From NCBI GenBank assembly GCA_947650365.1, contig CANTAL010000100.1, forward strand, positions 372,001 through 436,000: a stretch of 64,000 nt of DNA, in the 5' to 3' direction. The first letter of the stretch is position 1, and each line of letters starts with the position of its first letter. A model generated the notes under the pieces. It had not been told where the DNA came from. It saw only the letters and a program-made list of their open reading frames with translations, and made no database searches. This stretch comes from Chamaelirium japonicum. Its lineage: Eukaryota; Streptophyta; Magnoliopsida; Liliales; Melanthiaceae. Position numbers and translations under genes: made by a program. Positions 3,112 through 64,000 of the stretch are shown in pieces.

Positions 3112-3813
3112 TCCTTTCAAATTCATTTGTATGATCCATTCTAATCCATTCGTACGATCCATTCTAATCCATTCGTACGATCCATTCTAATTCATTCTCA
3201 CAAATGTAACATTTCTAATTCATTTGTACGATCCATTCTAATTCATTCGTACGATCCATTCTAATCCATTCGTACGATCCATTCTAATTCATTCGCACGT
3301 ATGATCCATTCTAATCCATTCGTACGATCCATTCTAATTTATTCGTACAAATGTATCCATTCTAATTCATTCGCTCGAATGTATCCATTCTAATTCATTC
3401 TCACGAATGTACCCTTTCTAATTCATTTGTATGATCCATTCTAATTCATTCATATGATCCATTCTAATCCATTCGTACGATCCATTCTAATCCATTCGTA
3501 CGATCCATTCTAATCCATTCGTATGATCCATTCTTATTCATTCTCACAAATGTATCCTTTCTAATTCATTCGTACGATCCATTCTAATTCATTCGCACGA
3601 TCCATTCTAATTCATTTGTACGAATGTATGCATTCTAATTCATTCGCACGATCCATTCTAATTCATTCGTACGATCCATTCTAATTTATTCGCACGAATG
3701 TAACCATTCTAATTCATTCGTATGATCCATTCTAATTCATTCGTACGATCCATTCTAATTTATTCGAGCGATCCATTCTAATTCATTTGTACGATCCATT
3801 CTAATTCATTCGT
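3112..3813 (+). repeat. Satellite block, plus orientation
   Basis: Has a CTCACAAATGTAAC long unit near 3195 followed by CATTTGTACG and CTAATCC units, the usual order of the higher-order core, but the rest of the core is scrambled. Exit is CATTCGTACGAATAAATTAG. Confidence 0.85.
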
Positions 3814-4655
3814 ACGAATAAATTAGAATGGATACATTCATGCAAATGAATTAGAATGGATTGTACGAATGAATTAGAATGGATCGTACGAATGAATTAG
3901 AATGGATCATGCGAATGAATTAGAATAGATCGTACGAATGAATTTGAATGGATCGTACGAATGAATTAGAATGGATCGTACAAATGAATTAGAAAGGTTA
4001 CATTTGTGAGAATGAATTAGAATGGATCGTACGAATGAATTAGAATGGATCGTACGAATGGATTAGAATGGATCATACGAATGAATTAGAATGGATCGTA
4101 CAAATGAATTAGAATAGCTCATACGAAGGAATTAGAATGAATCGTACAAATGAATTAGAATGGTTACATTCGTGAGAATGAATTAGAATAGATCATACGA
4201 ATGAATTAGAATGGATCGTACGAATGAATTAGAATGGATACATTTGTGCGAATGAATTAAAATGGATCATGCAAATGAATTAGAATGGATACATTCGTGC
4301 AAATGAAATAGAATGTATCATACGAATGAATTAGAATAGATCGTATGAATGAATTAGAATGGATACATTCATGCAAATGAATTAGAATGGGTCGTACGAA
4401 TGAATTAGAATGGATCATACGAATGAAGTAGAATGGATCGTGCGAATGAATTAGAATGGATTGTACGAATGAATTGCAATGGATACATTCGTGCGAATGA
4501 ATTAGAATGGATCGTACGAATAAATTAGAATGGATCATACGAATGAATTAGAATAGATCATACGAATGAATTAGACTGGATTGTAAGAATGAATTAGAAT
4601 AGATCGTGCGAATGAATTAGAATGGATCGTACGTTTGAATTAGATTGGATTGTGC
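3814..4655 (-). repeat. Satellite block, minus orientation
   Basis: Long and short units are closely mixed between about 4220 and 4540. Because a 23-bp unit shifts the reading frame by two and a 28-bp unit by one, this mix leaves a 93-codon frame open on the minus strand (4257-4538). It encodes only the satellite, in runs such as IHSNSFVRS, and is not a gene. The block exits at TGTGCGATTC. Confidence 0.85.
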
Positions 4656-5533
4656 GATTCTTTCTAATTTATTCGTATGAGTTATTCTAATTCATTCGTA
4701 CGATCCATTCTAATTCATTCGTACGCTCCATTCTAATTCATTCATACGATCCATTCTAATCCATTCGTACGATCCATTCTAATTTATTCGCACGAATATA
4801 ACCATTCTAATTCATTCGTATGATCCATTTTAATTCATTCGCACGATTCATTCTAATTCATTCGCACGATCCATTCTAATACATTCGCACGATCCATTCT
4901 AATTCATTCGTACGATCCATTCTAATTCATTCGCACGAATGTATCCATTCTAATTCATTCGTACGATCAATTCTAATTCATTCGCACGATCCTTTCTAAT
5001 TCATTTGTACGATCCATTCTAATTCATTCGTATGATCCATTCTAATTCATTCTCACAAATGTAACCTTTCTAATTCATTTGTACGATCCATTCTAATTCA
5101 TTCGTACGATCCATTCTAATCCATTCGTACGATCCATTCAAATTCATTCGTACGATCCATTCTAATTCATTCTCACAAATGTAACCTTTCTAATTCATTT
5201 GTACGATCCATTCTAATTCATTCCTACGATCTATTCTAATTCATTCGTATGATCCATTCTAATTCATTCGCACGATCCATTCTAATTTATTCGTATGATC
5301 CATTATAATTCATTCGTACGATCTATTCCAATTCATTCGTACGATCTGTTCTAATTCATTCGCACGAATGTATCCATTCTAATTCATTCGTACAATCCAT
5401 TCTAATTTATTCGCACGATCCATTCTAATTCATTCGTTTGATCAATTCTAATTTATTCCTACGATCTATTCTAATTCATTCGTACAATCCATTCAAATTC
5501 ATTCGTACGATACAATCTAATTCATTCACACGT
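4656..5533 (+). repeat. Satellite block, plus orientation
   Basis: Contains two CTCACAAATGTAACC long units near 5053 and 5172, each followed by CTTTCTAATT and CATTTGTACG, about 119 bp apart. This is one more example of pentamer spacing. Exits at ACACGTACGAATG near 5532. Confidence 0.85.
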
Positions 5534-6330
5534 ACGAATGAATTAGAATGGATCGTACGAATGAATTAGAATGGATCATACGAATGGATTAGAATGGATC
5601 GTACGAATGAATTAGAATGAATCGTACGAATGAATTAGAATAGCTCGTACGAATGAATTAGAATGAATCGTACGAATGAATTAGAATGGTTACATTCGTG
5701 CGAATGAATAAGAATAGATCGTACGAATGAATTAGAATGGATCATAGGAATGAATTAGAATGGATCGTGCAAATGAATTAGAATGGATCGTACGAATGAA
5801 TTATAATACATCATGTGAATGAATTAGAATGGATCGTACAAATGAATTAGATTAGATCATACAAATTAATTAGAAAGGTTACATTTGTGAGAATAAATTA
5901 GAATGGATCGTACGAATGAATTAGAATTGATCATGCGAATGAAATTGAATGGATTGTACGAATGAATTAGAATGGATCGAACGAATGAATTAGAATGGAT
6001 CATACGAATGAATTAGAATAGATCGTAGGAATGAATTAGAATGGATCATATGAATGAATTAGAATGGATCATGCGTATGAATTAGAATGGATTGTACGAA
6101 TGAATTAGAATGGATACATTCGTGCGAATGAATTAGAATGGATCGGACGAATGAATTAGAATAGATTGTGCGAATGAATTAGAATGGATCGTACGAATGA
6201 ATTAGAATGGATCATATGAATGAATAAGAATGGATCGTACGAATGAATTAGAATAGATCGTGCGAATGAATTAGAATGAATCGAACGAATGCATTAGAAT
6301 GGATTGTACGAATGAATTAGAATGAATCGT
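5534..6330 (-). repeat. Satellite block, minus orientation
   Basis: Ordinary minus units with one TTACATTTGTGAG long unit near 5880. The right end has the variant GCATTAG followed by AATCGTACGATCC, a junction that recurs at about 11572, 35233 and 62283. Confidence 0.85.
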
Positions 6331-7130
6331 ACGATCCATTCTAATTCATTCCTATGACCCATTCTAATTCATTCGTACGATCCATTCTAATTCATTCCTA
6401 TGACCCATTCTAATTCATTCGTACGATCCATTCTAATTCATTCGCTCGAATGTATCCATTCTAATTCATTCGTACGATCTATTCGAATTCATTCGTACGA
6501 TCCATTCTAATTCATTCTCACGAATGTAACCTTTCTAATTCATTTGTATGTATCCATTCTAATTCATTCGTACGATCCATTCTAATTCATTCGCACGATC
6601 CATTCTAATTCATTCGTATGATCAATTCTAATTCATTCGCACGATCCATTCTAATTCATTCGTACGATCCATTCTAATTCGTTCGGACGAATGTATCCAT
6701 TCTACTTTATTCGTACGATTCATTCTAATTCATTCGCACGATCCATTCTAATTCATTCGTACGATCCATTCTTATTCATTCGTACGATCCATTCTAATTC
6801 ATTCGTACGATCCATTCTAATTCATTCGGTGGATCCATTCTAATTCATTCGTACGATCTTTTCTAATTCATTCGCACGATCCATTCTAATTTATTCGTAA
6901 AATCCATTCTAATTCATTCGTACGATCTATTCTAATTCATTCGCATGATCCATTCTAATTCATTCGTACGATCTATTCTAATTCATTCGTACAATCCATT
7001 CAAATTCGTTCGTACGATGCAATCTAATTCATTCGCACACTTGTATCTATTCTAATACATTCGTACAATGCGTTCTAATCCATTCGTACGATCCATTCTA
7101 ATTCATTCGTACAATCCATTCTAATTCATT
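6331..7130 (+). repeat. Satellite block, plus orientation
   Basis: Begins with a two-copy 46-bp dimer marked by CCTATGACCC at 6351 and 6397. Further right come the marker GGTGGATCC at 6828 and the GATGCAATC / GCGTTCTAATCC module at about 7015-7085. Exit is CATTCGAATG, a 10-bp palindrome lacking the GTAC core. Confidence 0.85.
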
Positions 7131-7319
7131 CGAATGAATTAGGATGGATCGTACGAATGGATTAGAATGGATCGTACGAATGGATTAGAATGGATCGTAC
7201 GAATGAATTAGAATGGATAGTACAAATGAATTAAAAAGGTTACATTTGTGAGAATGAATTAGAATGGATCGTGCGAATGAATAAGAATGGATCAGACGAA
7301 TGAATTAGAATGGATCGTA
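7131..7319 (-). repeat. Short satellite block, minus orientation
   Basis: About eight units, including one AAGGTTACATTTGTGAG long unit near 7245. The exit at GGATCGTACGATTC closely resembles the exit at 12660, and both are preceded by ATCAGACGAATG. Confidence 0.85.
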
Positions 7320-8086
7320 CGATTCATTCTAATTCATTCGTATGATCCATTCTAATGCATTCGTTCGATCTATTCTAATTTATTCGCACGAATGTAACCA
7401 TTCTAATTCATTCGTACGATTCATTCATTCGTATGAGCTATTCTAAATCATTCGTATGATCCATTCTAATTCATTCGTACGATCCATTCTAATCCATTCG
7501 TACGATCCATTCTAATTCATTCGTACGATCCATTCTAATTCATTCTCACAGATGTAACATTTCTAATTCATTTGTACGATCCATTCTAATTCATTAGTAC
7601 GATCCATTCTAATCCATTCATACGATCTATTCTAATTCATTCTAATTCATTCGTACGATCCATTCGTATGATCCATTCTAATTCATTCGTACGATTCATT
7701 CTAATTCATTCTAATTCATTCGTACGATTCATTCGTACGATCCATTCTAATTCATTCGTACGATCTATTCTAATTCATTCTAATTCATTCGTACAATCCA
7801 TTCTAATTTATTCATACGATCCATTCTAATTCATTTGCACGATCCATTCTAATTCATTCGTACGATCCATTCTAATTCATTCGCATGAATATATCTATTC
7901 TAATTCATTCGTATGATCCATTCTAATTTATTCGCACGATCAATTCTAATTCATTCGTACGATCCATTCTAATTCATTCGCACGATCCATTCTAATTTAT
8001 TCGTACGATCCATTCTAATTCATTCGTACGATCTATTCTAATTCATTCGCACGATCCATTCTAATTCATTCGTACGATCCATTCGT
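7320..8086 (+). repeat. Plus block with expansions of single half-units
   Basis: Between about 7620 and 7800 the 10-bp half is doubled (CATTCTAATT twice) three times, and the 13-bp half is doubled in CGATCCATTCGTATGATCC and a similar run. The two halves of the unit can therefore be copied independently. The stretch 7541-7690 has a near-identical copy at 42905-43050. Confidence 0.85.
7541..7690 (+). repeat. Distant duplicate with half-unit expansion, copy 1
   Basis: Matches 42905-43054 at an offset of 35364, sharing CATTAGTACG, CATTCATACGATCT, a doubled 10-bp half and a doubled 13-bp half in the same order. The combination is too specific to be chance within the array. Confidence 0.88.
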
Positions 8087-8230
8087 ACGAATGAATTAGA
8101 ATGGATCATACAAATGAATTAGAAAGGTTACATTCGTGAGAATAAATGAGAATGGATCGTGCGAATGAATTAGAATTGATCATGCAAATGAATTAGAATG
8201 GATCGTACGAATGAATTAGATTGCATCGTA
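8087..8230 (-). repeat. Short satellite block, minus orientation
   Basis: About six units between two CGTACG switches: entry CATTCGTACGAATG (a 14-bp palindrome) and exit GCATCGTACGATCC. It contains one AAGGTTACATTCGTGAG long unit. Confidence 0.85.
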
Positions 8231-9075
8231 CGATCCATTCTAATTCATTCGCACGATCCATTCTAATTCATTCGTATAATCAATTCTAATTCATTCGCAT
8301 TATCCATTCTAATTTATTCGTACGATCCATTCTAATTCATTCGCACGAATGTAACCATTCTAATTCATTCGTACGATCCATTCTAATTCATTCATATGAA
8401 TGTAACCTTTCTAATTCGTTCGTACGATCCATTCTAATTCATTCATACGATCCATTCTAATTCATTCCTACGATCCATTCTAATTCATTCGCTCGAATGT
8501 ATCCATTCTAATTCATTCGTATGATCCATTCTAATCCATTCGTACGATCCATTCTAATTCATTCGTACGATCTATTCAAATTCATTCGCATGATCCATTC
8601 TAATTCGTTCGTACGATCCATTCTAATTCGTTCGCACGATCCATTCTAATTCATTCGCACGATCCATTCTAATTCTTTCATATGATCCATTCTAATTCTT
8701 TCGCACGAATGTATCCATTCTAGTTCATTCGTACGCACCATTCTTATTCATCACACAAATGTATCCATTCTAATTCATTTGCACGATCCATTCTAATTCA
8801 TTCCTATGATCCTTTCTAATTCATTCGTACGATCCATTCTAATTTATTCGCACGAATATATCCATTCTAATTCATTCGTATGATCCATTCTCATTCATTC
8901 GCACGATCCGTTCTAATTCATTTGCACAATCCATTCGTACGATCCATCCTACGATCCATTCAAATTCATTCACATAATCCATTCTAATTCATTCGTACGA
9001 TCCATTCTAATTCATTCTCACGAATGTAACCTTTCTAATTCATTTGTATGATCCATTCTAATTCATTCGTACGAT
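8231..9075 (+). repeat. Satellite block, plus orientation
   Basis: Contains the rare-variant module CTTTCATATG, CTAGTTC, CGCACC, CTTATTCATCACAC at about 8670-8760. The same module with CGCTCC recurs near 14.88, 18.41, 36.18, 43.69 and 63.01 kb, and inverted near 9.16, 10.25, 16.33, 25.2 and 37.46 kb. A deletion-like patch (CATTCGTACGATCCATCCTACG) lies near 8935-8955. Exits at the GATACATT junction. Confidence 0.85.
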
Positions 9076-9404
9076 ACATTTGTGCGAATGAATTAGAATG
9101 GATCATACGATTGAATTTGATGGATCGTACGAATAAATTAGAACGGATACATTTGTGCGATGAATAAGAATGGAGCGTACGAATGAATTAGAATGGAGCG
9201 TACGAATGAACTGGAATGGATACATTCGTGCGAATGAATTAGAATGGATCATATGAAAGAATTAGAATGGATCGTGCGAATGAATTAGAAAGGATCGTAC
9301 GAATGAATTAGAATGGATCGTACGAACGAATTAGAATGGATCGTACGAACGAATTAGAATGGATCGTATGAACGAATTAGAATGGATCGTACTAATATAT
9401 TAGA

Positions 9405-9715
9405 ATGGATACATTCAAGCGAATGAATTAGAATGGATAGTACGAATGAATTAGAATGGATCATAGGAATGAATTAGAATCGATAGTGCAAATGAATTAG
9501 AATGGATACATTCGTGCGAATGAATTAGAATGGATCGTAGGATTGAATTAGAATGGATCGTACGAATGAATTACAATGGTTACATTCGTGCGAATGAATT
9601 AGAATGGATTGTACGAATGGATTAGAATGGTTCATACGAATGGATTAGAATGGATCGTACGAATGAATTAGAATGGATCGTACAAATGAATTAGAAAGGT
9701 TACATTTGTGAGAAT
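9405..9715 (-). repeat. Higher-order core, minus orientation, diverged
   Basis: Complete mirrored order with several private changes (ACTAATATATTAG, GATAGTGCAAATG, GGTTCATACG). Preceded by three GAACGAATT units. Confidence 0.85.
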
Positions 9716-10562
9716 GAATTAGAATGGATCGCACGAATGAATTAGAATGGATCGTACGAATGGATTAGAATGGATCGTACGAATGAATTAGAATGGATCA
9801 TGCGAATGAATTAGAATGGATTATACCAATGAATTATAATGGATACATTTGTGCGAATGAATTAGAATGGATCGTACGAATGAATTAGAATGGATATATT
9901 TATGCGAATGAATTAGAATGGATCGAACGAATGAATTAGAATGGATACATTTGTGCGAATGAATTAGAATAGATCATACAAATGAATTAGAATGGATCAT
10001 AGGAATGAATTAGAATGGATCGTGCAAATGAATTAGAATGGATACATTCATGCGAATGAATTAGAATGGATCGTAGGAATGAATTAGAATGGATCGTACG
10101 AATGAATTACAATGGATCGTACGGATGAATTAGAATGGATCATAGGAACGAATTAGTATGGATCGTACGAATGAATTAGAATGGATCGTACGAATAAATT
10201 AGAATGGATCATTCGAATGAATTAGAATGGATCGTACGAATGTATTAGAATGGAGCGTACGAATGAATTAGAATGGAGCGTACGGATGAACTAGAATGGA
10301 TACATTCGTGCGAATGAATTAGAATGGATCATATGAAAGAATTAGAATGGATCGTGCGAATGAATTAGAATGGATCGTACGAATGAATTAGAATGGATCG
10401 TGCGAATGAATTCGAATGGATCGTACGAATGGATTAGAATGGATCGTACGAATGGATTAGAATGGATCGTACGAATGAATTAGAATGGATACATTCAAGC
10501 GAATGAATTAGAATGGATCGTACGAATAAATTAGAATGGATCGTACGAATAAATTAGAATGG

Positions 10563-10588
10563 ATCCATTCGTACGATCCATTCTAATC
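10563..10588 (+). repeat. Single-unit inversion inside a minus block
   Basis: One plus-orientation unit sits inside minus units. It is entered through GGATCC and left where CTAATC meets ATTAGAATGG. The flanks form a short hairpin-capable inverted repeat. It is the smallest whole-unit flip I found. Confidence 0.75.
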
Positions 10589-11571
10589 ATTAGAATGGAT
10601 ACATTCGTGCGAATGAATTAGAATCGATCGTACGAATGAATTAGAATGGATCATACGAATGAACTAGATCGTACGAATGAATTAGAATGGATCGTATGAA
10701 TGAATTAAAATGGATACATTCATACGACTGAATTAGAATGGATCATGCGAATTAATTAGAATTGATCGTACGAATGAATTAAAATGGATCATGCGAATGA
10801 ATTTGAATGGATCGTACGAATGAATTAGAATGGATCGTACGAATGAATTAGAATGGATCATACGAATGAATTAGAATGGATCGTGCGAATGAATTAGAAT
10901 GGATTGTACGAATGAATTAGAATGGATACATTCAAACGAATGAATTAGAATGGATCGTACAAATGAATTAGAATGGATCATAGGAATGAATTAGAATGGA
11001 TCGTGCAAATGAATTAGAATGGATACATTTGTGCGAATGAATTAGAATGGATCGTAGGAATGAATTAGAATGGATCATACGAATGAATTAGAATGCATCG
11101 TGCAAATGAATTAGAATGGATCGTACGAATGAATTAGAATGGATCATAGGAATGAATTAGAATGGATCGTGCAAATGAATTAGAATGGATACATACGTGC
11201 GAATGAATTAGAATGGATTGTAGGAATGAATAAGAATAGATCGTATTAATGAATTAGAATGGATCGTGCGAATCAATTAGAATGGATCGTACAAATGAAT
11301 TAGAATGGATCATAGGAATGAATTAGAATAGATCGTGCAAATGAATTAGAATGGATACATTCGTGTGAATGAATTAGAATGGATCGTAGGAATGAATAAG
11401 AATGGATCGTACGAATGAATTAGAATGGATCGTACGAATGAATCAGAATGGATCGTGCGAATGAATTTGAATGGATCGTATGAATGAATTAGAATGGATC
11501 GTGCGAATGAATTAGAATGAATCGTACGAATGCATTAGAATGGATCATATGAATGAATTAGAATGAATCGT

Positions 11572-12495
11572 ACGATCCATTTTAATTCATTCGTCCGATC
11601 CATTCTAATTCATTCGCATGAATGTATCCATTCTAATTCATTCATACGATCCACTCTAATTCATTCCTACGATCCATTCTAATTCATTCGCACGAATGTA
11701 TCCATTCTAATTCATTTGCACGATCCATTCTAATTCATTCCTATGATTTATTCTAATTCATTCGTACGCAAGAATGTATCCATTCTAATTCATTCGCACG
11801 AACAATTCTAATTCATTCGTACGATCCATTCTAATTTATTCGCACAAATGTATCCATTCTAATTCATTCGTACAATCCATTCTAATTCATTCGCACGATC
11901 CATTCTAATTCATTCGGATGATCCATTCTAATTCATTCCTACGATCTATTCTAATTCATTCGCTCGAATGTATCCATTCTAATTCATTCGTACAATCCAT
12001 TCTAATTCATTCGCACGATCCATTCTAATTCATTCGTATGATCCATTCTAATTCATTCCTACGATCTATTCTAATTCATTCGCTTAAATGTATCCATTCT
12101 AATCCATTCGTACGATCCATTCTAATTCATTCGTACGATCCATTCTAATTCATTATCCATTCTAATTCATTTGTACGATCCATTGTAATTCATTCGTACA
12201 ATCCATTCTAATTCATTCGTACGATCCATTCTAATTCATTCTGTCGAATGTATCCATTCTAATTCATTCGTACGATCCATTCTAATTCGTTCATACGATC
12301 CATTCTAATTCGTACGTACGATCCATTTTAATTCGTTCGTACGATTCATTTAATTCATTCGTACGATCCATTCTAATGCATTCGTACGATTCATTCTAAT
12401 TCATTCGCACGATCCATTCTAATTCATTCGTATGATCCATTCTAATTCATTCCTACGATCTATTCTAATTCATTCGCTCGAATGTAACCTTTCTA
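11572..12495 (+). repeat. Plus block with tandem 120-bp pentamers
   Basis: Two pentamers end in GCTCGAATG (11962) and GCTTAAATG (12082), exactly 120 bp apart. Each runs through units marked TACAATCC, GCACGATCC, TATGATCC (first copy GGATGATCC), CCTACGATCT and the long GCTCG unit. The block exits at the 12-bp palindrome TTCTAATTAGAA, inside the 10-bp half rather than at CGTACG. Confidence 0.85.
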
Positions 12496-13427
12496 ATTAG
12501 AATGGATCGTACAAATGAATTAGAAAGGTTACATTCATGAGAATGAATTAGAATGGATTCTACGAAAGAATAAGAAAGGATCGTACGAATGAATTAGAAT
12601 GGATACATTCGTGCGAATGAATTAGAATGGATCAGACGAATGAATTAGAATGGATCGTACGATTCATTCTCGCATGAATGTATCCATTCTAATTCATTCG
12701 CACGATCCATTCTAATTCATTCGTATGATCCATTCTAATTCATTCCTACGATCTATTCTAATTCATTTGCTCGAATGTATCCATTCTAATTCATTCGTTC
12801 GATCCATTCTAATTCATTCGTACGATCCATTCAAATTCAGTCACATGATCCATTCTAATTCATTCGTACAATCCATTCTAATTCATTGTCACGAATGTAA
12901 CCTTTCTATTTCATTTGTATGATCCATTCTAATTCATTCGTACGATCCATTCTAATCCATTCGTACAATCCATTCTAATCCATTCGTACGATCCATTCTA
13001 ATCCATTCGTACGATCCATTCTAATACATTCGCACGAATGTAACCATTCTAATTCATTCATATGATCCATTATAATTCATTCGTACGATCCATTATAATT
13101 CATTCGTATGATCCATTCTAATTCATTCATACGATCCATTCTAATACATTCGCACGAATGTAACCATTCTAATTCATTCGTACGATCCATTCTAATTCAT
13201 TCCTACGATCCATTCTAATTCATTCGCACGAATGTATCCATTCTAATTAATGGATCGTGCGAATGAATTAGAATGGATCATACGAATGAATTAGAATGGA
13301 TCGTGGGAATGAATTAGAATGGATCATACAAATGAATTAGAAAGGTTATATTCGTGAGAATGAATTAGAATGGATCATACGAATGAATTAGAATGGATCG
13401 TACGAATGAATTAGAATGGAATTAGAA
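12496..13427. repeat. Three short alternating blocks (-, +, -)
   Basis: Minus 12496-12660, plus 12661-13247, minus 13248-13427. The plus block carries another GCTCG pentamer near 12690-12780 and a 65-codon frame (12725-12922) that translates only satellite. The right edge has the unusual sequence GGAATTAGAATTCATTC, which recurs at about 22495. The plus block opens with a truncated unit (ATTCTCGCATG). Confidence 0.85.
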
Positions 13428-16000
13428 TTCATTCATACGATCCATTCTAATCCATTCATACGATCCATTCTAATGCATTCGTACGATTCATTCTAATTCA
13501 TTCGCACGATCCATTCTAATTCATTCGTATGATCCATTCTAATTTATTTGCACGAATATACGATCCATTCTAATTTATTCGCAAGAATGTATCCATTCTA
13601 ATTCATTCACACGATCCATTCTAATTCAGTCGTATGAATGTATCCATTTTAATTCATTCGTACGATCCATTCTAATTCATTCGTACGATCTAATTCATTC
13701 GTACGATCCATTCTAATTCATTCGTACGATCGATTCTAATTCATTCACACGATCCATTCTAATTCATTCGTACGATCCATTCTAACTCATTCGTATGATC
13801 CATTCTAATTTATTCGTTTCCGCACAAATGTATCCATTCTAATTCATTCGTACAATCCATTCTAATTCATTCGCACGATCCATTCTAATTCATTCGTATG
13901 ATCCATTCTAATTCATTCGCACGATCCATTCTAATTCATTCGTACGATCCATTCTAATTCATTCCCACAAATGTATCCATTCTAATGCATTCGTACGATC
14001 CATTCTAATTCATTCGTATGATCCATTCTAATACATTCGTACGATCCATTCTAATTGATTCGTACGATCCATTCTAATTCATTCTCACAAATGTAACCTT
14101 TCTAATTCATTGGTACGATCCATTCTAATTCATTCGTACGATCCATTCTAATCCATTCGTACGATCCATTATAATTCATTCTCACAAATGTAACCTTTCT
14201 AATTCATTTGTACGATCCATTCTAATTCATTCGTACGATCCATTCAAATCCATTCATACGATCCATTCTAATCCATTCGTACGATCCATTCTAAGTCATT
14301 CGCACGAATGTAACGATTCTAATTCATTCGTACGATCCATTCTAATTCATTCCTACGATACATTCTAATTCATTCGCACGAATGTATCCATTCTAATTCA
14401 TTCGTACGATCCATTCTAATTCATTCGTACAATCCATTCAAATTCATTTGTACGATGCAATCTAATTCATTCGCACAAATGTATCTATTCTAATTCATTC
14501 GTCCAATGCGTTCTAATCCATTCGTACGATCCATTCTAATCCATTCATACAATCCATTCTAATATATTCACACGAATGTAACCATTCTAATTCATTCATA
14601 TGATCCATTCTAATTCATTCGTACGATCCATTCTAATTCATTCGTATGATCCATTCTAATTCATTCGTACGATCCATTCTAATTCATGTGCAAGAATGTA
14701 TCCATTCTAATTTATTCGTAGGATCCAGTCTAATTTATTCGTACGATCCATTCTAATTCATTCGCATGAATATATCCATTCTAATCCATTTGTACGATCC
14801 TTTCTAATTCATTCACACGGTCCATTCTAATTCTTCCATATGATCCATTCTAATTCATTCGCACGAATGTATCCATTCTAGTTCATTCGTACGCTCCATT
14901 CTAATTCATTCGTACGCTCCATTCTTATTCATCGCACAAATGTATCCATTCTAATTCATTTGTACGATCCATTCTAATTCATTCGTACGATCCATTCTAA
15001 TTCATTCGTACGATCCATTCTAATTCATTCACACAAATGTATCCATTCTAATTCATTCGTATGATCCATTCTAATTCATTCGCACGATCCATTCTAATTC
15101 ATTCGTACGATCCATTCTAATTCATTCGCACGAATGTATCCATTCTAATGCATTCGTACGATCCATTCTAATTCATTCGTACGATCCATTCTAATCCATT
15201 CGTACGATCCATTCTAATTCATTCGTACGATCCATTCTAATTCATTCTCACAAATGTAACCTTTCTAATTTATTTGTACGATCCATTCTAATTCAATCGT
15301 ACGATCCATTCTAATCCATTCGTACGATCCATTCTCATCCATTCGTACGATCCATTCTAATTCATTCGCACGAATGTAACCATTCTAATTCATTCGTACG
15401 ATCCATTCTAATTCATTCCTACGATCCATTCTAACTCATTCGCACGAATGTATCCATTCTAATTCATTTGCACGATCCATTCTAATTTATTCCTATGATC
15501 CATTCTAATTCATTCGTACAATCCATTCTAATTCATTCGCTCGAATGTATCCATTCTAATTCATTCGTACGATCCATTCTAATCCATTCGTACGATCCAT
15601 TCTAATTCATTCGTACAATGCGTTCTAATTCATTCGCACGAATGTATCCATTCAAATTCATTTGCACGATCCATTCTAATTGATTCCTATGATCCATTCT
15701 AATTCATTCGTACGATCCATTCTAATTCATTCGCTCGAATGTATCCATTCTAATTCATTCGTACGATCCATTCTAATTCGTTCATACGATCCATTCTAAT
15801 TCGTTCGTACGATCTATTCTAATTCGTTCGTACGATCCATTCTAATTCGTTCATACGATCCATTCTAATTCGTTCGTACGATCTATTCTAATTCGTTCGT
15901 ACGATCCATTCTAATTCATTCGCACGATCCATTCTAATTCATTTGTACTTTCCATTTTAATTCATTCGCATGATCCATTCTAATTCATTCGTATGATACA
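13428..16000 (+). repeat. Satellite block, plus orientation (first copy of a long duplicated segment)
   Basis: Shares its entry junction, a CGTTTCCGCAC insertion at about 13815 and unit-by-unit variants with the block beginning at 22503. Contains the GATGCAATC / GCGTTC module (14450-14520), the CTAGTTC / CGCTCC module (14876-14940), one full 309-bp core (15243-15551), and a 69-bp trimer repeated twice (15779-15916) with CGTTCATACG, CGTTCGTACGATCT and CGTTCGTACGATCC. Exits at GATACATTCGTTCG. Confidence 0.87.
15243..15551 (+). repeat. 309-bp higher-order core, plus orientation
   Basis: Order of variant units: long CTCACAAATGTAAC; CTTTCTAATT with TTTGTACG; plain; two CTAATCC units; long GCACGAATGTAAC; plain; CCTACG; long GCACGAATGTATC; TTTGCACG; CCTATG; plain; long GCTCGAATGTATC. 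Units with CGTTC follow. The same order recurs in the other core copies. Confidence 0.88.
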
Positions 16001-44782: not shown

Positions 44783-44879
44783 AGGAATGAATTAGAATAG
44801 ATACATTCGTGCGAATGAATTAGAATGGATACATTCGTGCGAATGAATTAGAATGGATCGTACGAACGAATTAGAATGG

Positions 44880-47952: not shown

Positions 47953-48369
47953 ATGAATTAGAATGGATCGTACGAATGGATTAGACTGGATCGTACGAAT
48001 TAATTAGAATGGATCGTACGAATGAATTAGAATGGATACATTTGTACGAATAAATTAGAATGGATTGTATGAATGAATTAGAATGGATTGTATGAATAAA
48101 TTAGAACGGATCGTACGAATGAATTAGAATTGATCGTGCGAATGAATTAGAATGGATCATAGGAATGAATTAGAATGGATCGTGCAAATGAATTAGAATG
48201 GATACATTCGTGCGAATGAATTAGAATGGATCGTAGGAATGAATTAGAATGGATCGAACGAATGAATTAGAATGGTTACATTCGTGCGAATGAATTAGAA
48301 TGGATCGTACGAATGGATTAGAATGGATCGTACGAATGGATTAGAATGGATCGTACGAATGAATTAGAA

Positions 48370-53432: not shown

Positions 53433-54704
53433 CGTACGAATGAATTATAATGGATCGTATGAATGAATTAAAATCGATACATTCGAGCGAATGAATTAGA
53501 TTGGATAAATTCGAGCGAATGAATTAGAATGGATTGTACGAATGAATTAGAATGGATCGTACGAATGGATTAGAATGGATCGTGCGAATGAATTAGAATG
53601 GATCGTACAAATGAATTAGAATGGATCGTATGAACGAATTAGAATGGATCGTACAAATGAATTAGAAAGGATACATTCACACGAATGAATTAGAATGGAT
53701 CGTACAAATGGTTTCATTCGTGCGAATAAATTAGAATCGATCGTACGAATGAATTAGAATGGATCGTGCAAATGAATTAGAAATGATCATACGAATGAAT
53801 TATAATAGATCGTACGAATGAATTAGAATGGATACATATATTCATGCGAATGAATTAGAATGGATCGTGCAAATGAATTAGAATGGATACAATCGTGCGA
53901 ATGAATTAGAATCGATCGTAGGAATGAATTAGAATGGATCGTGCAAATGAATTAGAATGGATACATTCGTGCGAATGAATTAGAATGGATCGTAGGAATG
54001 AATTAGAATGAATCGTACGAATGAATTAGAATGGTTACATTCGTGCGAATGAATTAGAATGGATCGTACGAATGAATTAGAATGGATCGTGCGAATGAAT
54101 TAGAATGGATCGTACGAATGAATTAGAATGGATCGTGCGAATGAATTAGAATGGATCGTACGAATGAATTAGAAAGGTTACATTTGTGAGAATGAATTAG
54201 AATGGTTACATTCGTGCGAATGAATTAGAATGGATCGTACGAATGAATTAGAATGGATCGTGCGAATGAATTAGAATGGATCGTACGAATGAATTAGAAT
54301 GGATCGTACAAATGAATTAGAAAGGTTACATTTGTGAGAATGAATTAGAATGGATCGTACGAATGAATTAGAATGGATCGTATGAATGAATTAGAATGGA
54401 TCATACGAATGAATTAGAATGGATCGTGCGAATGAATTAGAATGAATATATTTGTACGAATAAATTAGAATGGATTGTATAAATGAATTAGAATGGATAC
54501 ATTCTTGCGAATAAATTAGAATGGATCGTATATTTGTGCAAATAAATTAGAATGGATCGTACGTTTGAATTAGATTGGATTGTGCGAATGAATTAGAATG
54601 GATACATTCGTGCGAATGAATTAGAATAGATCGTATGAATGAATTAGAATGGATCATTCGAATGAATTAGAATGGATCGTGCGAATGAATTAGAATGGAT
54701 CGCG
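53433..54704 (-). repeat. Satellite block, minus orientation
   Basis: Entered through CGATCGTACGAATG. A dimer of alternating GTACG and GTGCG units is repeated several times between about 54060 and 54300, with long TTACATTCGTGCG and TTACATTTGTGAG units between. The unit ACGTTTGAATTAGATTGG near 54551 recurs from 4632 and, less exactly, near 53038. Exit is the aberrant CGCGTGTATGAATG. Confidence 0.85.
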
Positions 54705-54884
54705 TGTATGAATGTATCCATTCTAATTTATTCATACGATCCATTCTAATCCATTCGTACGATCCATTCTAATTCATTCGCACGATCCATTCTAATTCAT
54801 TCCTATGTTCCATTCTAATCCATTCTAATTCATTCCTATGATCGATTCTAATTCCTTCATACGATCCTTTCTAATTCATTCGTA
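54705..54884 (+). repeat. Short satellite block, plus orientation
   Basis: About eight units, including two halves without their partners near 54810 (CTAATCCATTCTAATTC). Exits through the palindrome CATTCGTACGAATG. Confidence 0.85.
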
Positions 54885-56335
54885 CGAATGAATTAGAATG
54901 GATCATGCGAATGAATTAGAATGGATCGTATGAATGAATTAGAATGGATCGTACGAATGGATTAGAATGGATCGTACGAATGGATTAGAATGGATACATT
55001 CATGCAAATGAATTAGAATGGATCGTACGAATGAATTAGAATGGATCGTACGAATGGATTAGAATGGATCGTACGAATGGATTAGAACGCATTGTACGAA
55101 TGAATTAGAATGGATCGTACGAATGAATCGTGCAAATAAATTAGAATGGATCATACGAATGAATTAGAATGGATCGTACGAATGAATTACAATGGATCAT
55201 AGGAATAGATCGTATGAATGAATTAGAATGGATCGTATGAATGAATTAGAATGGATCATGCGAATGAATTAGAATGGATTGTACGAATGAATTAGAATGG
55301 ATACATACAAATGAATTAGAAAGGTTACATTCGTGAGAATGAATTAGAATGGATCGTAGGAATGAATTAGAATGGATCGTACGAATGAATTAGAATGGTT
55401 ACATTTGAGCGAATAAATTAGAATGGATCGTACGAATGAATTAGAATGGATCGTACAAATAAATTAGAATGGATCATGCGAATGAATTAGAATGGATCTT
55501 ACGAATGAATTAGAATGGATCCACCAAATAAATTAGAATGGATCATACGAATAAATTAGAATGGATCGTACGACAGAATTAGAATGGATCGTGCGAATGG
55601 ATTAGAATGGATCGTACGAATGAATTAGAATGGATCGGACGAATTAGAATGGATCATGCGAATGAATTAGAATGGATCGTACGAATGAATTAGAATGGAT
55701 CGTGCGAATGAATTAGAATGGATCGTACGAATGAATTAGAATGGATTCGTACGAATGAATTAGAATGGATCGTACGAATGGATTAGAATGGATCGTACGA
55801 ATTAGAATGGATCATACGAATGAATTAGAATGGTTACATTCCACCGTATGAGTAAGAATGGATCATACGAATGAATTAGAATGGATCGTACGAATGCATT
55901 AGAATGGATCGTACGAATGAATTAGAATGAATCGTACAAATGAATTAGAAATGGATCGTACGAATGAATTAGAATGGTAACATTAGTGCGAATGAATTAG
56001 AATGGATCGTACGAATGGATTAGAATGGATCGTACGTATGAATTAGAATGGATCGTACGAATGGATTAGAATGGATCGTACGAATGGATTAGAATGGATC
56101 ATATGAATGGATTAGAATGGATCATACGAATGAATTAGAAAGGATCATATGAAAGAATTAGAATGGATCGTGCGAATGAGTTAGAATGGATCGTGCGAAT
56201 GAATTAGAGTGGATCGTACGAACGAATTAGAATGGATCATACGAACGAATTAGAATGGATCGTACGAACGAATTAGAATGGATCATATGAACGAATTAGA
56301 ATGGATCGTACGAATGAATTAGATTGGATACATTC
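54885..56335 (-). repeat. Satellite block, minus orientation
   Basis: Less regular than other minus blocks. Several units are shortened, for example GGACGAATTAGAATGG near 55640 and TACGAATTAGAATGG near 55796, and one carries an inserted T (GGATTCGTACG near 55745). A GGATCCACC marker is at 55517 and a related TTCCACCGTATGAG unit is near 55840. Ends with four GAACGAATT units before CATTCGTACGATCC. Confidence 0.85.
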
Positions 56336-58814
56336 GTACGATCCATTCTAATTCATTCGTACGATCCATTCTAATCCATTCGTATGATCCATTCTAATCC
56401 ATTCGTACGATTCATTCTAATTCATTCGTATGATCAATTCTAATTCATTCGCACGATCTATTCTAATTCATTCGCACGATCTATTCTAATTCATTTGTAC
56501 GATCCATTCTAATTCATTCGTACTCTAATTCATTCGCACGATCCAGTCTAATTCATTCGTACGATCCATTCTAATTCATTCGTATGATCCATTCTAATTT
56601 CTTCGTTCAAATATATCCATTGTAATTCATTCGTATGATCCATTCTAATTCATTCGCACGATCCATTCGAATTCATTCATACGATCCATTCTAATTCATT
56701 CGCACGAATATATCCATTCTAATTCATTCGTACGATCCATTCTAATTCATTCGTACGATCTATTCTAATCCATTTGTACGATCCATTCTAATCCATTCGT
56801 ACGATCCATTCTAATCCATTCGTACGATCCATTCTAATTCATTCACACAAATGTAACCATTCTAATTCATTCATACGATCCATTCTAATTCATTCATACA
56901 ATCCATTCTAATTCATTCGCACAAATGTATCCATTCTAATTAATTTGTACGATCCATTCTAATTCATTCATATGATCCATTCTTATTCATTCGCACGATC
57001 CAGTCTAATTGATTCGCACGATCCATTCTAATTCATTCGCGCGAATGTATCCATTCTAATTCATTCTTATAATCCATTCTAATTCATTAATATGATCCTT
57101 TCTAATTCATTAGTACGATCCATTCTAATTCATATGAACAAAGGTATCCATTCTAATTCATTTGCACGATCCATTCTAATTCATTCCTATGATCCATTCT
57201 AATTCATTCATACGATCCATTCTAATTCATTCACTCGAATGTATCCATTCTAATTCATTCGTACGATCTATTCTAATTCGTTCATACGATCCATTCTAAT
57301 TCGTTCGTACAATCCATTCTGATTTATTCGCACGATCCATTCTAATTCATTCGTACTATCCATTCTAATTCTTTCATATGATCAATTCTAATTCATTCGT
57401 ACGATCCATTCTAATTCGTTCGTACGATCCAGTCTAATTCGTTCGTACGATCCACTCTAATTCATTCGTGTGATCCATTCTAATTCATTCGTACAATCCA
57501 TTCTAATTTATTCTCACAATGTAACCTTTCTAATTCATTTGTATGATCCATTCTAATTCATTCGTACGATCCATTCTAATCCATTCGTACGATCCATTCT
57601 AATCCAATCGTACGATCCATTCTAATTCATTCTCACAAATGTAACCTTTCTAATTCATTTGTACGATCCATTCTAATTCATTCGTACGATCCATTCTAAT
57701 CCATTCGTATGATCCATTCTAAACCTTTCGTACGATCCATTCAAATTCATTCGCACGAATGTAACCATTCTAATTCATTCGTACGATCCATTCTAATTCA
57801 TTCCTACGATCCATTTAATTCATTCGCACGAATGTATCCATTCTAATTCATTTGCACGATCCATTCTAATTCATTCCTATGATCCATTCTAAGTCATTCA
57901 TACGATCTATTCTAATTCATTCGCTCGAATGTATCCATTCTTATTCATTCGTACGATCCATTCTAATTCGTTCGTACGATCTAATTCATTCGTACGATCC
58001 ATTCTAATTCATTCGCACAAATGTATCCATTCTAATTCATTCATACGATCCATTCTAATTCATTCGTATGATCCATTCTAATTCATTCACACAAATGTAT
58101 CCATTCTAATTCATTCGTTCGATCCATTCTAATTCATTCACATAAATATATCCATTCTAAATTATTCGTACGATCCATTCTAATACATTCGAAGATCCAT
58201 TCTAATTCATTCGCACAAAGGTATCCATTCTAATTCATTCGTACAATCCATTCTAATTCATTCTCATGATCCATTCTAATTCATTCGTACGATCCATTCT
58301 AATTCATTCGTACGATCCATTCTAATCCATTCGTACGATCCATTTTAATCCATTCGTACGATCCATTCTAATTCATTCTCACAAATGTAACCTTTCTAAT
58401 TCATTTGTACGATCCATTATAATTCATTCGTAAGATCCATTCTAATCCATTCGTACGATCCATTCTTATCCATTCGTACGATCCATTCTAATTCATTCGC
58501 ACGAATGTAACCATTCTAATTCATTCGTACGATCTATTCTAATTCATTCCTATGATCCATTCTAATTCATTCGCACGAATGTATCCATTCTAATTCATTT
58601 GCACGATCCATTCTAATTCATTCCTATGATCCATTCGAATTCATTCGTACGATCCATTCTAAATCATTCGCACGAATGCATCCGTTCTAATTCATTCGTA
58701 CGATCCATTCTAATTCATTCGTATGATCCATTCAAATTCATTCGTACGATCCATTTTAATCCATTCGTACGATCTATTCTAATTCATTCGTACAATGCGT
58801 TCTAATCCATTCGT
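56336..58814 (+). repeat. Satellite block, plus orientation
   Basis: Contains two core copies (57628-57936 and about 58376-58684) plus CGTTC runs. The left part has a unit truncated to TACTCTAATTC near 56521 and the right part a deleted CATTCGAAGATCC near 58187. Exits at CATTCGTACGAATG. Confidence 0.85.
57628..57936 (+). repeat. 309-bp higher-order core, plus orientation
   Basis: Same order, more diverged: one CTAATCC unit reads CTAAACCTTTCG and one half has lost a base (CATTTAATTC). A second, similar copy starts near 58376 in the same block. Confidence 0.85.
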
Positions 58815-59514
58815 ACGAATGAATTAGAATGGATCGTGCGAATGAATTAGAATGGATCGTACGAATGAATTAGAATGGATCGTACGAATGAATTAGATCA
58901 TTCGAATGAATTAGAATGGATCGTACGAATGAATTAAAATGGATTGTACGAATGAATTAGAATGGATACATTCATACGAATGAATTAGAATGGATAGTAC
59001 GAATGAATTAGAATGGATCGTATGAATGGATTAGAATGGATCGTACGAATGGATTAGAATGGATTGTACGAATGAATTAGAATGGATCATACAAACGAAT
59101 TAGAAAGGTTACATTCGTGAGAATGAATTAGAATGGATCGTACGAATGAATTAGAATGGATCATGCAAATGAATTAGAATGGATCGAACGAATGAATTAG
59201 AATGGATCATACGAGTGAATTAGAATAGATCGTAGGAATTAATTAGAATGGATCATACGAATGAATTAGAATGGATCGGGCGAATGAATTAGAATGGATC
59301 GTACGAATGAATTAGAATGGATCGTATGAACGAATTAGAATGGATCGTACGAACGAATTAGAATGGATCGTACGAACGAATTAAAATTGATCGTACGAAT
59401 GAATTAGAATGGATACATTCATGCGAATGAATTAGAATAGATCGTACGAATGAATTATAATGGATCGTACGAATGGATTAGAACGCATTGTACGAATGAA
59501 TTAGATTGCATCGT
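58815..59514 (-). repeat. Satellite block, minus orientation
   Basis: One unit is cut short at ATTAGATCATTCG near 58895. GAACGAATT units lie near 59330-59390 and the GAACGCATTG / GATTGCATCG pair at 59478-59510 lacks the usual long unit between. Exits at GCATCGTACGATCC. Confidence 0.85.
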
Positions 59515-59824
59515 ACGATCCATTCTAATTCATTCGTACGATCCATTCTAATTCATTCGCACAAATGTATCCATTCTAATTCATTCGCTCGAATGTATCC
59601 ATTTTAATTCATTCGTACGATCCATTCTAATTTATTCGTACAATCTAATTCATTCGTATGATCCATTATAATTCATTCGTATGATCCATTCTAATTCATT
59701 TGCATGAATGTATCCATTCTAATCCATTCGTACGATCCATTCTAATCCATTCGTACGATCCATTCTAATTCATTCGTACGATCCATTCTAATTCATTCAC
59801 ACGATCCATTCTAATTCATTCGTA
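59515..59824 (+). repeat. Short satellite block, plus orientation
   Basis: About 13 units with one truncated at CAATCTAATTC near 59642. Exits through CATTCGTACGAATG at about 59818-59830. Confidence 0.85.
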
Positions 59825-60459
59825 CGAATGAATTAGAATGGATCGTACGAATGAATTAGAATGGATCATAGGAATGAATTAGAATGGATCGTGCAAATGA
59901 ATTAGAATGGATACATTCGTGCGAATGAACTAGAATGGACCGTAGGAATGAATTAGAATGGATCGTACGAATAAATTAGAATGGTTACATTCGTGCGAAC
60001 GAATTAGAATGGATCGTACGAACGAATTAGAATGGATCGTATGAATGAATTAGAATGGATCGTACGAATGGATTAGAATGGATCGTATGAATGGATCAGG
60101 CGAATGAATTAGAATAGATCGTACGAAAGAATTAGAATGGATCGTACGAATGAATTAGAATGGATACATTCGTGCGAATGAATTAAAATGGATTGTGCGA
60201 ATGAATTAGAATGGATTGTGCGAATGAATTAGAATGGATCGTGCGAATGAATTAGAATGGATCGTATGAATGAATAAGAATGGATCGTACGAATGAATTA
60301 GAATGGATCGTGCGAATGAATTAGAATGAATCGTACGAATGCATTAGAATGGATACATTCGTGCGAACGAATTAGAATGGATCGTACGAACGAATTAGAA
60401 GGGATCGTACGAACGAATTAGAATGGATCGTACGAACGAAATAGAATGGATCGTACGAA

Positions 60460-61315
60460 TGAATTAGAATGGATACATTCGAGCGAATGAATTAGAATGG
60501 ATCGTACGAATGAATTAGAATGGATCATAGGAATGAATTAGAATGGATCGTGCAAATGAATTAGAATGGATACATTCGTGAAAATGAATTAGAATGGATC
60601 GTAGGAATGAATTAGAATGGATCGTACGAATGAATTAGAATGGTTACATTCGTACGAATGAATTAGAATGTGATCCATTCTATTTCATTCGTACGATCCA
60701 TTCTAATTCATTCGCTCGATTGTATCCATTCTAATTCATTCGTACGATTCATTCTAATTCTTTCGAGCGAATGGATCGTACGAATGGATTAGAATGGATC
60801 ATACAAATGAATTAGAAAGGTTACATTCGTGCGAATGAATTAGAATGGATCGTACGAATGAATTAGAATGGATCATATGAATGAATTAGAATGGTTACAT
60901 TCATGCGAATGAATTAGAATGGATCGTACGAATGGATTAGAATGGATTGTACGAATGGATTAGAACGGATTGTACTAATGAATTAGAATAGATACTTTTG
61001 TGCGAATGAATTAGATTGCATCATACTAATGAATTTGAATGGATTGTACGAATTAATTAGAATGGATCGTACGAATGAATTAGAATGGATCGAACGAATG
61101 AATTAGAATGGATCGTACGAATGAATTAGAATGGATACATTTGTGCGAATGAATTAGAATGGATCGTAGGAATGAATTAGAATGAATCGTACGAATGAAT
61201 TAGAACGGTTACATTTGTGCGAATGAATTAGAATAGATCGTACGAATGAATTATAATGGATCATACGAATAAATTAGAATGGATCGTGCGAATGAATTAG
61301 AATGGATCGTACGAA
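60460..61315. repeat. 856-bp tandem duplication, copy 1
   Basis: Landmarks repeat at exactly +856: GAATGTGATCC (60669), GATTGCATC (61011), AACGGTTAC (61203). Contains the small plus block 60671-60766. Confidence 0.93.
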
Positions 61316-62171
61316 TGAATTAGAATGGATACATTCGAGCGAATGAATTAGAATGGATCGTACGAATGAATTAGAATGGATCATAGGAATGAATTAGAAT
61401 GGATCGTGCAAATGAATTAGAACGGATACATTCGTGCAAATAAATTAGAATGGATCGTAGGAATAAATTAGAATGGATCGTACGAATGAATTAGAATGGT
61501 TACATTCGTACGAATGAATTAGAATGTGATCCATTCTAATTCATTCGTACGATCCATTCTAATTCATTCGCTCGATTGTATCCATTCTAATTCATTCGTA
61601 CGATTCATTCTAATTCTTTCGAGCGAATGGATCGTACGAATGGATTAGAATGGATCATACAAATGAATTAGAAAGGTTACATTCGTGCGAATGAATTAGA
61701 ATGGATCGTACGAATGAATTAGAATGGATCATATGAATGAATTAGAATGGTTACATTCATGCGAATGAATTAGAATGGATCGTACGAATGGATTAGAATG
61801 GATTGTACGAATGGATTAGAACGCATTGTACTAATGAATTAGAATAGATACTTTTGTGTGAATGAATTAGATTGCATCATACGAATGAATTTGAATGGAT
61901 CGTACGAATTAATTAGAATGGATCGTACGAATGAATTAGAATGGATCGAACGAATGAATTAGAATGGATCCTACGAATGAATTAGAATGGATACATTTGT
62001 GCGAATGAATTAGAATGGATCGTAGGAATGAATTAGAATGAATCGTACGAATGAATTAGAACGGTTACATTCGTGCGAATGAATTAGAATAGATCGTATG
62101 AATGAATTAGAATGGATCATACGAATAAATTAGAATGGATCGTGCGAATGAATTAGAATGGATCGTACAAA
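61316..62171. repeat. 856-bp tandem duplication, copy 2
   Basis: Few scattered differences from copy 1, for example AACGCATTG where copy 1 has AACGGATTG. It diverges at GGATCCACC (62183), where copy 1 continues into the GAGCG unit. Confidence 0.93.
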
Positions 62172-62282
62172 TGAATTAGAATGGATCCACCGAATGAGTT
62201 ACAATGGATCATACGAATGAATTAGAATGGATTGTACGAATGCATTAGATTGGATCGTACGAATGAATTAGAATGAATCGTA

Positions 62283-62998
62283 TGATCCATTCTAATTCAT
62301 TCGCATGATCCATTCTAATTTATTCGCATGATCCATTCTAATTCATTCGTACGATCTATTCTAATTCATTTGTACGATCCATTCTAATTCATTCGCACAA
62401 ATGTATCCATTCTAATTTATTCGTACGATCCATTCTAATTCATTCTCACGAATGTATCATACGAATGAATTAGAATGGATTGTGCGAATGAATTAGAATG
62501 GATCGTACAAATGAATAAGAATAGATCGTAGGAATGAATTAGAATGGATACATTTGAGCGAATAAATTAGAATGGATCATACGAATGAATTAGAATGTAT
62601 CATAGGAATGAATTAGAATGGATCGTGCAAATGAATTAGAATGGATACATTCGTGCGAATGAATTAGAATGGATCGTAGGAATGAATTAGAATGGATCGT
62701 ACGAAAGAATTATAAAGGTTACATTCGTGAGAATGAATTAGAATGGATCATACGAATGAATTAGAATGGATCGTACGAATGAATTAGAATGGATACATTC
62801 GAGCGAATGAATTAGAATGGATCGTACGAATGAATTAGAATGAAACGTGCAAAGAAATAAGAATGGATACATTCGTGCGAATGAATTAGAATGGATCGTA
62901 CGAATGAATTAGAATAGATCGTACGAATGAATTAGAATGGATCGTACGAATGAATTAGAATGGATCGTGCGAATGAATTAGAATAGATCGTATGAACG
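62283..62998. repeat. Plus block (62283-62458) then minus block (62459-62998)
   Basis: The plus part is eight ordinary units ending in CACGAATGTATCATACG. The minus part holds a partial core (CATAGG, GTGCAAATG, ATACATTC, GTAGG near 62600-62690) and one short unit, GTGCAAAGAAATAAG, near 62847. Confidence 0.83.
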
Positions 62999-64000
62999 AA
63001 TGTATCCATTCTAGTTCATTCGTACGCTCCATTCTAATTCATTCCTACGCTCCATTCTTATTCATCGCACAAATGTATCCATTCTAATTCATTCGTACGA
63101 TCCATTCTAATGCATTCGCACGATCGATTCAAATTCATTCGCACGATCTATTCTAATTCATTCGTACGATCCATTCTAATTCATTCCTATGATCCATTCT
63201 AATTCATTCGCACGAATGTATCCATTCTAATTCATTTGCACGATCCATTCTAATTCATTCCTATGATCCATTCTAATTCATTCATACGAACCATTCTAAT
63301 TCATTCGCTCGAATGTATCCATTCTAATTCATTCGTACGATCCATTCTAATTCATTCTCACGAATGTAACCTTTCTAATTCATTTGTCTGATCCATTCTA
63401 ATTTATTCATACGATCCATTCGCTCGAATGAATTAGAATGAATCGTACGAATGAATTAGAATGAATACATTCGAGCAAATGAATTAGAAAATGGATACAT
63501 TTGTGAGAATGAATTAGAATGGATCGTACGATCCATTCTAATTCATTCGTACGATCCATTCAAATTCATTTGCATGATCCATTCTAATTCATTAGTTCGA
63601 TCCATTCTAATTCATTCTCACGAATGTAACCTTTCTAATTCATTTGTATGATCCATTCTAATCCATTCGTACGATCCATTCTAATCCATTCGTACGATCC
63701 ATTCTAATTCATTCGAACAATCCATTCAAATTCTTTCGTACGATACATCCTAATTCATTCGTATGATCCATTCTAACTCATTCGGTGGATCCATTCTAAT
63801 TCATTCGTACGATCCATTCTAATTCATTCGCACGATCCATTCTAATTCATTCGCACGATCCATTCTAATTCATTCGCACAAATGTATCCATTCTAATTCA
63901 ATCGTACAATCCATTCTAATTCATTCGCATGATCCATTCTAATTCATTCGTACGATCCATTCTAATTCATTTGTACGATCCATTCTAAATCATTCGCACG
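62999..64000. repeat. Final blocks (+, -, +), array continues off the edge
   Basis: Plus 62999-63425, minus 63426-63528, plus 63529-64000. The first begins at once with the CTAGTTC / CGCTCC / CTTATTCATCGCAC module (63010-63070), as at 18406. The minus piece is only about four units. GGTGGATCC is at 63785. The window stops in mid-unit at CATTCGCACG. Confidence 0.85.

Follow-up and report, generated by a model that had tools for sequence, protein, structure and literature searches.

The window analyzed here, a stretch of 64,000 nucleotides (C112:372001-436000), consists of a holocentromeric Chio1/Chio2 satellite array of Chionographis japonica, built from 23- and 28-bp units (Table 1). We regard this assignment as settled, because unit structure and assembly figures agree with the published genome, for which the passages we draw on give 12 chromosomes, 1090.73 Mb and an N50 of 81.11 Mb, together with Chio monomers of 23 and 28 bp that differ by 5 bp and one substitution (PMC10264360). 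In the assembly used here (1.519 Gb, 3253 contigs), C1-C12 total 1090.67 Mb, C13 has 3.9 Mb, and the N50 is 81,106,678. Its cytochrome oxidase I reads through 532 codons in the standard code, a sign of a plant mitochondrion. The same passages describe an 8-bp dyad with a predicted hairpin, arrays of mixed forward and reverse orientation, CENH3 occupancy of the arrays and their high CpG methylation (PMC10264360). We are thus dealing with the same genome and repeat, and mixed orientation, dyad and predicted hairpin are already published. Inversions are considered there only as a possible route of array spread, and these passages state neither a placement nor a driver of the orientation switches. 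Neither literature searches nor the passages considered from PMC10264360 and PMC12722358 yielded a report of where switches fall.

The window contains both the 23-bp monomer and the 28-bp variant with its 5 additional bp and one substitution. The additional bases are an AATGT insertion after the hexamer, whose third base is T in 83% of the 23-bp units and C in 89% of the 28-bp units. A preliminary description of the window had stated that every consensus unit carries CGTACG, which is true of the 23-bp consensus but not of most 28-bp units; the exact hexamer occurs in only 37% of 9719 scored units. The array reads CATTCGTACGATCC and hence contains TTCGTACGA, the 9-mer of Chio, along with the 8-bp dyad. 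This dyad, TCGTACGA, is the longest consensus word common to both strands, followed by CATTCGT/ACGAATG (7 bases, involving 28-bp units), CATTCG/CGAATG (6 bases), and GATC and AATT (4 bases each). Exact 20-mer units number 1,296,547 in forward and 1,283,050 in reverse orientation in the whole genome, and orientation is thus balanced genome-wide. The Chio arrays are estimated at 297 Mb.

Orientation switches were called with a two-orientation hidden Markov model (HMM) containing a 28-bp branch; an HMM with 23-bp units only misplaced switches beside 28-bp units and was discarded. For each switch, placement ambiguity was integrated out by summing the posterior, with a uniform prior, across every exit and entry phase. 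We define register as the offset between the plus and minus dyad grids, and a switch as being on the dyad if it is in register with an overlap of at least 3 bases. Our sample comprises 20 loci with 232,309 array bases, the window included. Loci L020-L023 and L025 were left out because they are not satellite, and L036 because it has no junctions; in L009-L019, L024 and L026-L028, 148 of 157 switches initially called passed the array-quality and edge filter. Copies of a junction arising from array duplication were merged according to the similarity of their flanks, read in both orientations, with average linkage at 0.15 (single linkage at loose thresholds merged nearly everything and was dropped). 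The random-breakpoint null consists of 10,000 chimeric sequences assembled from pieces of real array. Default and three altered HMM settings agreed within 0.012 (16 loci, 246 switches; L009, L016 and L018 excluded), and 329 of 329 junctions were recovered when simulated arrays were passed through detection and classification.

Switches concentrate at the CGTACG core, as the preliminary description had proposed. The window holds 74 of them, and 34 are most likely in register (14/37 plus-to-minus, 20/37 minus-to-plus), compared with 4.3% of random breakpoints and only 12 of the 329 junctions in simulated arrays. The full sample contains 266 switches, one per 873 bases, with 37/134 plus-to-minus and 57/132 minus-to-plus switches in register. 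These collapse to 133 independent switches, 49 of them in register: 21/66 plus-to-minus, a 7.5-fold excess over the null (binomial p 2e-13), and 28/67 minus-to-plus, a 9.8-fold excess (5e-21). Of the 49 in-register switches, all but one are on the TCGTACGA dyad (20/66 and 28/67; null 1.8%). The excess at the palindrome means that breakpoints are not spread evenly over the unit, even with placement ambiguity taken into account. Alternative clustering rules (113-151 clusters) give in-register shares of 28-32% plus-to-minus and 39-41% minus-to-plus. Removing two loci that had been chosen with knowledge of dyad sites leaves 20/59 plus-to-minus and 26/61 minus-to-plus switches in register, and removing the window as well leaves 13/36 and 15/38. 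The dyad receives approximately one-third to one-half of the switches, not the majority.

The 18 places listed in the preliminary description all correspond to HMM orientation switches, within ~7 bases. Its eight minus-to-plus places all hold exact ATCGTACGATCC and are in register with posteriors of at least 0.91. The ten plus-to-minus places had been read as a perfect 14-bp palindrome, and this is correct for six of them, which carry exact CATTCGTACGAATG (8080, 18865, 41493, 54877, 58808 and 59817); those at 3807, 39248 and 44083 differ by one base and that near 5534 (CACACGTACGAATG) by two. Seven of the ten are in register at the dyad, and those near 5534, 8087 and 18873 have other registers. 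Because the switches at 8087 and 18873 are out of register, a perfect 14-mer does not always mark an in-register switch. Moreover, three of the nine exact CATTCGTACGAATG 14-mers in the window (39930, 60647 and 61503) are found inside 28-bp units, away from switches.

Table 1. The satellite array and its in-register orientation switches, in window coordinates
Feature	Position	Strand	Posterior
Chio1/Chio2 satellite array; plus unit CGTACGATCCATTCTAATTCATT, 23 bp; ~1/5 of window units 28 bp	1..64000	.	
Plus-to-minus, at dyad (CATTCGTACGAATA)	3807..3820	.	0.99
Plus-to-minus, at dyad	19463..19476	.	0.97
Plus-to-minus, at dyad	21268..21281	.	0.98
Plus-to-minus, at dyad; copy at 29393	27217..27230	.	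0.98
Plus-to-minus, at dyad; sequence identical to 27217	29393..29406	.	0.98
Plus-to-minus, decayed dyad	33395..33408	.	0.84
Plus-to-minus, at dyad (TATTCGTACGAATG)	39248..39261	.	0.98
Plus-to-minus, exact CATTCGTACGAATG	41493..41506	.	0.92
Plus-to-minus, at dyad	43775..43788	.	0.86
Plus-to-minus, at dyad (TATTCGTACGAATG)	44083..44096	.	0.98
Plus-to-minus, at dyad	44776..44789	.	0.97
Plus-to-minus, exact CATTCGTACGAATG	54877..54890	.	0.99
Plus-to-minus, exact CATTCGTACGAATG	58808..58821	.	0.98
Plus-to-minus, exact CATTCGTACGAATG; folds as 21-bp hairpin	59817..59830	.	0.99
Minus-to-plus, CGTACG	1721..1726	.	0.98
Minus-to-plus, TGTGCG	4651..4656	.	0.93
Minus-to-plus, CGTACG	6328..6333	.	0.98
Minus-to-plus, CGTACG	7316..7321	.	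0.98
Minus-to-plus, CGTACG	8227..8232	.	0.91
Minus-to-plus, CGTACG	11569..11574	.	0.98
Minus-to-plus, CATACG	16533..16538	.	0.98
Minus-to-plus, 28-bp to 23-bp unit	29272..29277	.	0.98
Minus-to-plus, CGTACG	35230..35235	.	0.98
Minus-to-plus, possibly in register (weak)	39515..39520	.	0.53
Minus-to-plus, 23-bp to 28-bp unit	41447..41452	.	0.98
Minus-to-plus, 23-bp to 28-bp unit	41622..41627	.	0.87
Minus-to-plus, CGTACG	44349..44354	.	0.90
Minus-to-plus, CGTACG	51336..51341	.	0.99
Minus-to-plus, CGTACG	52229..52234	.	0.99
Minus-to-plus, CATACG	53231..53236	.	0.98
Minus-to-plus, 28-bp to 23-bp unit	56335..56340	.	0.96
Minus-to-plus, CGTACG	59512..59517	.	0.91
Minus-to-plus, CGTATG	62279..62284	.	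0.96
Minus-to-plus, CGTACG	63525..63530	.	0.99

Genome-wide, we counted exact 22-bp palindromes built from consensus half-units, figures that represent copies rather than events. The dyad axis yields 4823 plus-to-minus and 5655 minus-to-plus palindromes, the AATT axis 2333 and 73, and the GATC axis 2056 (single direction searched); one further axis tested gave 0. Corrected for base conservation in the window, the numbers become ~38.8k and 28.2k for the dyad, 5.9k and 1.0k for AATT, 5.3k for GATC, and 0 for the further axis.

We think that these switches probably arise by microhomology-primed switching to the opposite strand, either as end joining or as inverted template switching. In this view, a DNA end left by breakage or stalling would find a short matching word on the opposite strand of a different unit, pair with it, and be extended or joined at that site, changing the orientation of the array. 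Because a self-complementary word is identical on both strands, an end stopping in TCGTACGA could base-pair without mismatch with the opposite strand of a different unit. The product would be an in-register switch that reads CATTCGTACGAATG or GGATCGTACGATCC, depending on its direction. Shorter words common to both strands (CATTC, CATTCG with 28-bp units, GATC and AATT) may yield many of the remaining switches, and later array expansion would copy junctions inside longer repeats. The assignment of the event to template switching or end joining in the course of repair or replication is inferred, as are the enzymes involved. Microhomology-mediated break-induced replication, with template switching, has reportedly been put forward for human copy-number change; as here, short shared words are found at its junctions, and here they are read from a satellite whose consensus contains a self-complementary word.

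Switches away from the dyad show the excess of short homology expected from such a process: 26 of 84 have an overlap of at least 4 bases, compared with 4.8% of random breakpoints. We fitted a log-linear rule to these non-dyad switches only, pooling the two directions and capping overlap at 8, and obtained a slope of 0.485 per base (0.37-0.59). The rule predicts an in-register share of 0.28 (0.17-0.41), and the observed share is 0.37 (49/133). Use of the dyad thus lies within the microhomology prediction, and no special enzyme is needed. This argues against a site-specific recombinase or transposase acting on TCGTACGA, which would explain the sharp site preference but which we regard as extremely improbable, given that switches also occur at two 4-bp dyads and at non-palindromic words and that some junctions have imperfect hexamers. 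It looks like one general process for which the palindrome is the best site, since only 48 of 133 switches are on the dyad and the others likewise prefer shared words. The preliminary description had suggested template switching or pairing between inverted units at the palindrome; pairing through the self-complementary core is best supported, with the qualification that it covers this minority of switches, whereas pairing between neighboring inverted units by fold-back has left no visible trace (see below).

We compared these switches to rearrangements that retain the strand. Overlap words in 138 distinct contexts of same-strand jumps are most commonly CATTC (42 contexts), with no overlap in 27. 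Scored by cut position, with 17 contexts that end in the AATGT insert and jumps of <3 bases excluded, the hexamer receives 32.5 (exit) and 26.3 (entry) cuts in these 138 contexts and thus no excess over the 30.0 expected if cuts were even. The hexamer is therefore not a general rearrangement hotspot but is preferred upon strand change, and the switch site appears to be determined by pairing more than by breakage. By length alone, the most frequent same-strand jumps are those of 13, 3 and 10 bases, seen in 36, 24 and 20 distinct contexts, respectively, with some contexts being non-satellite. Irregular units with 10- and 13-base shifts within one strand are common in all array loci, consistent with slippage at the CATTC direct repeat.

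The absence of a hexamer excess in same-strand jumps bears directly on the alternative that a hairpin or cruciform formed by the dyad breaks, and that breakage rather than pairing decides the position of the switch. Such a break hotspot should mark same-strand rearrangements too; the preference of non-dyad switches for shared words also speaks against this alternative. A 34-nucleotide stretch with two adjacent dyads does fold into a 6-bp DNA stem (-3.4 kcal/mol, z -2.15), but the stem is weak, and 7 of 200 shuffles were as good. The authors working on Chionographideae do propose that TTCGTACGA may form hairpins and that these lead to fork collapse, breaks and ectopic repair, in the passages of their 2025 paper considered here (PMC12722358). 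Taken together, we consider breakage as the deciding step unlikely.

Two further routes make predictions about how junctions are arranged. In a paired inversion, two dyads of one chromatid would recombine and flip the intervening segment, creating both junctions together. The dyad is an inverted repeat between any two same-strand units, and both types of dyad junction are similarly numerous (20 and 28 independent clusters), but neighboring dyad-dyad switch pairs number 35, compared with 34.4 +/- 2.9 in within-locus shuffles, where old pairs could be hidden by later events; we find this route quite unlikely. In a local fold-back, the end would copy back from its own neighboring unit and leave mirror-image arms. 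Dyad junctions are indeed near loop-free palindromes, with a 21-bp stem at 59817, and a few non-dyad junctions have mirror-like arms (4/128 with z>3 for 138-bp arms, 0/143 for 69-bp arms). However, similarity between the arms of dyad junctions does not exceed that between random pieces (mean z -0.02, n=72, for 69-bp arms; -0.17, n=58, for 138-bp arms), in a comparison that covers arms starting at the junction and in which old fold-backs could have decayed. A test for derivation of the right arm from the left 3 kb at 46 window junctions gave a mean rank of 0.46, which carries no weight here because near bins always hold matching orientation. The arm and pair comparisons give no support to recent fold-back or to simple two-dyad inversion, and we judge fold-back in particular very improbable.

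Several observations weigh against microhomology-primed switching. First, the in-register share varies by array: it is 3/20 and 6/23 in the C1 loci versus 10/20 and 11/19 in the C112/C20 loci outside the window, and the effect is therefore weak among C1 plus-to-minus switches. Second, an uncapped fit by direction is rough, predicting shares of 0.68 and 0.29 where 0.32 and 0.42 are observed. Third, the AATT axis is strongly asymmetric, plus-to-minus palindromes being 32-fold more common uncorrected and ~6-fold after correction; the asymmetry may result from amplification of a few junctions. Fourth, a requirement for pairing of the full hexamer would leave hardly any imperfect hexamers at junctions, yet perfect ones are found in just 10/21 and 17/27 dyad-junction clusters versus 37-46% expected (binomial p 0.21-0.43 and 0.03-0.06, respectively); the cluster rule applied here yields 27 minus-to-plus clusters instead of the 28 given above. 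Likewise, 1237 junctions genome-wide (637 + 600) carry CATACG or its complement, compared with 5655 perfect ones. The resulting ratio of 0.22 falls between the one-change ratio of 0.30-0.39 reckoned without a pairing rule and that of ~0.07 under a strict rule (the unit ratios are 0.24 for CATACG and 0.15 for CGTATG). There is thus a mild excess of perfect dyads over the reckoning without pairing, well short of strict pairing. CpG decay after junction formation is a plausible source of the gap, because both variants are CpG transitions and Chio arrays are reported to be highly CpG-methylated in the passages cited above (PMC10264360). Finally, shared words were scored on the consensus rather than on the parent units of the events.

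Two related systems, known to us from passages of the respective papers, place these findings in context. The 60-bp Chama satellite of Chamaelirium luteum carries TTCGTACGA like Chio, and hence the same dyad, yet its arrays are consistently oriented, unlike those of Chio (PMC12722358). The dyad alone is therefore insufficient to scramble orientation. Macro-dyad satellites of Tribolium madens resemble Chio in forming putative centromere-region arrays with many orientation changes, but their main inversion types are conserved and amplified, with 2044 sequences of 98.9% similarity and 3486 of 98.2% (PMC13081366). The ~133 separate switch clusters in 232 kb of Chio do not reduce to a few amplified types, although some families have been amplified.

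Our analysis touches on the questions of why dyads are so common in centromere repeats and how the orientation of arrays comes to change. One genome with very many natural junctions allows breakpoint use to be measured against shared-word length, and it helps to separate two ideas, since strand switches favor the self-complementary word and same-strand changes do not. The findings lend sequence-level support to the idea, put forward in the passages considered, that TTCGTACGA promotes rearrangement (PMC12722358). As a speculation that we hold to be rather doubtful, the conserved centromere dyad of the tribe could be an engine of array rearrangement. Ends broken within centromere units would pair with the TCGTACGA of whichever opposite strand they meet, whether in their own or in a different array, and restart there. 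One microhomology process would then both scramble orientation and seed further centromere units along the chromosome; it would run freely in Chionographis and be restrained in Chamaelirium, where the dyad occurs without scrambling.

Some additional features of the arrays were noted. In the C1 arrays (L009-L016, L019, L033 and L034), one minus-to-plus junction (gaatga|ATTCGTACGATCCATTCG and its reverse complement) recurs >20 times. As it does so in both orientations, whole higher-order repeats bearing the switch have been copied and inverted. At 10566-10589 and 18878-18909 of the window, opposite-strand segments of approximately one unit lie between two switches, such as serial template switching could give. 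The 28-bp units are near-palindromic (CATTCGCACGAATG) and resemble a 23-bp unit in which a very short stretch has changed strand, so that an origin from the same switching process is conceivable. Outside the satellite, dozens of small contigs from C514 onward contain a full-length, 532-codon COX1 (standard code) with equal scores and are apparently unmerged mitochondrial sequence.

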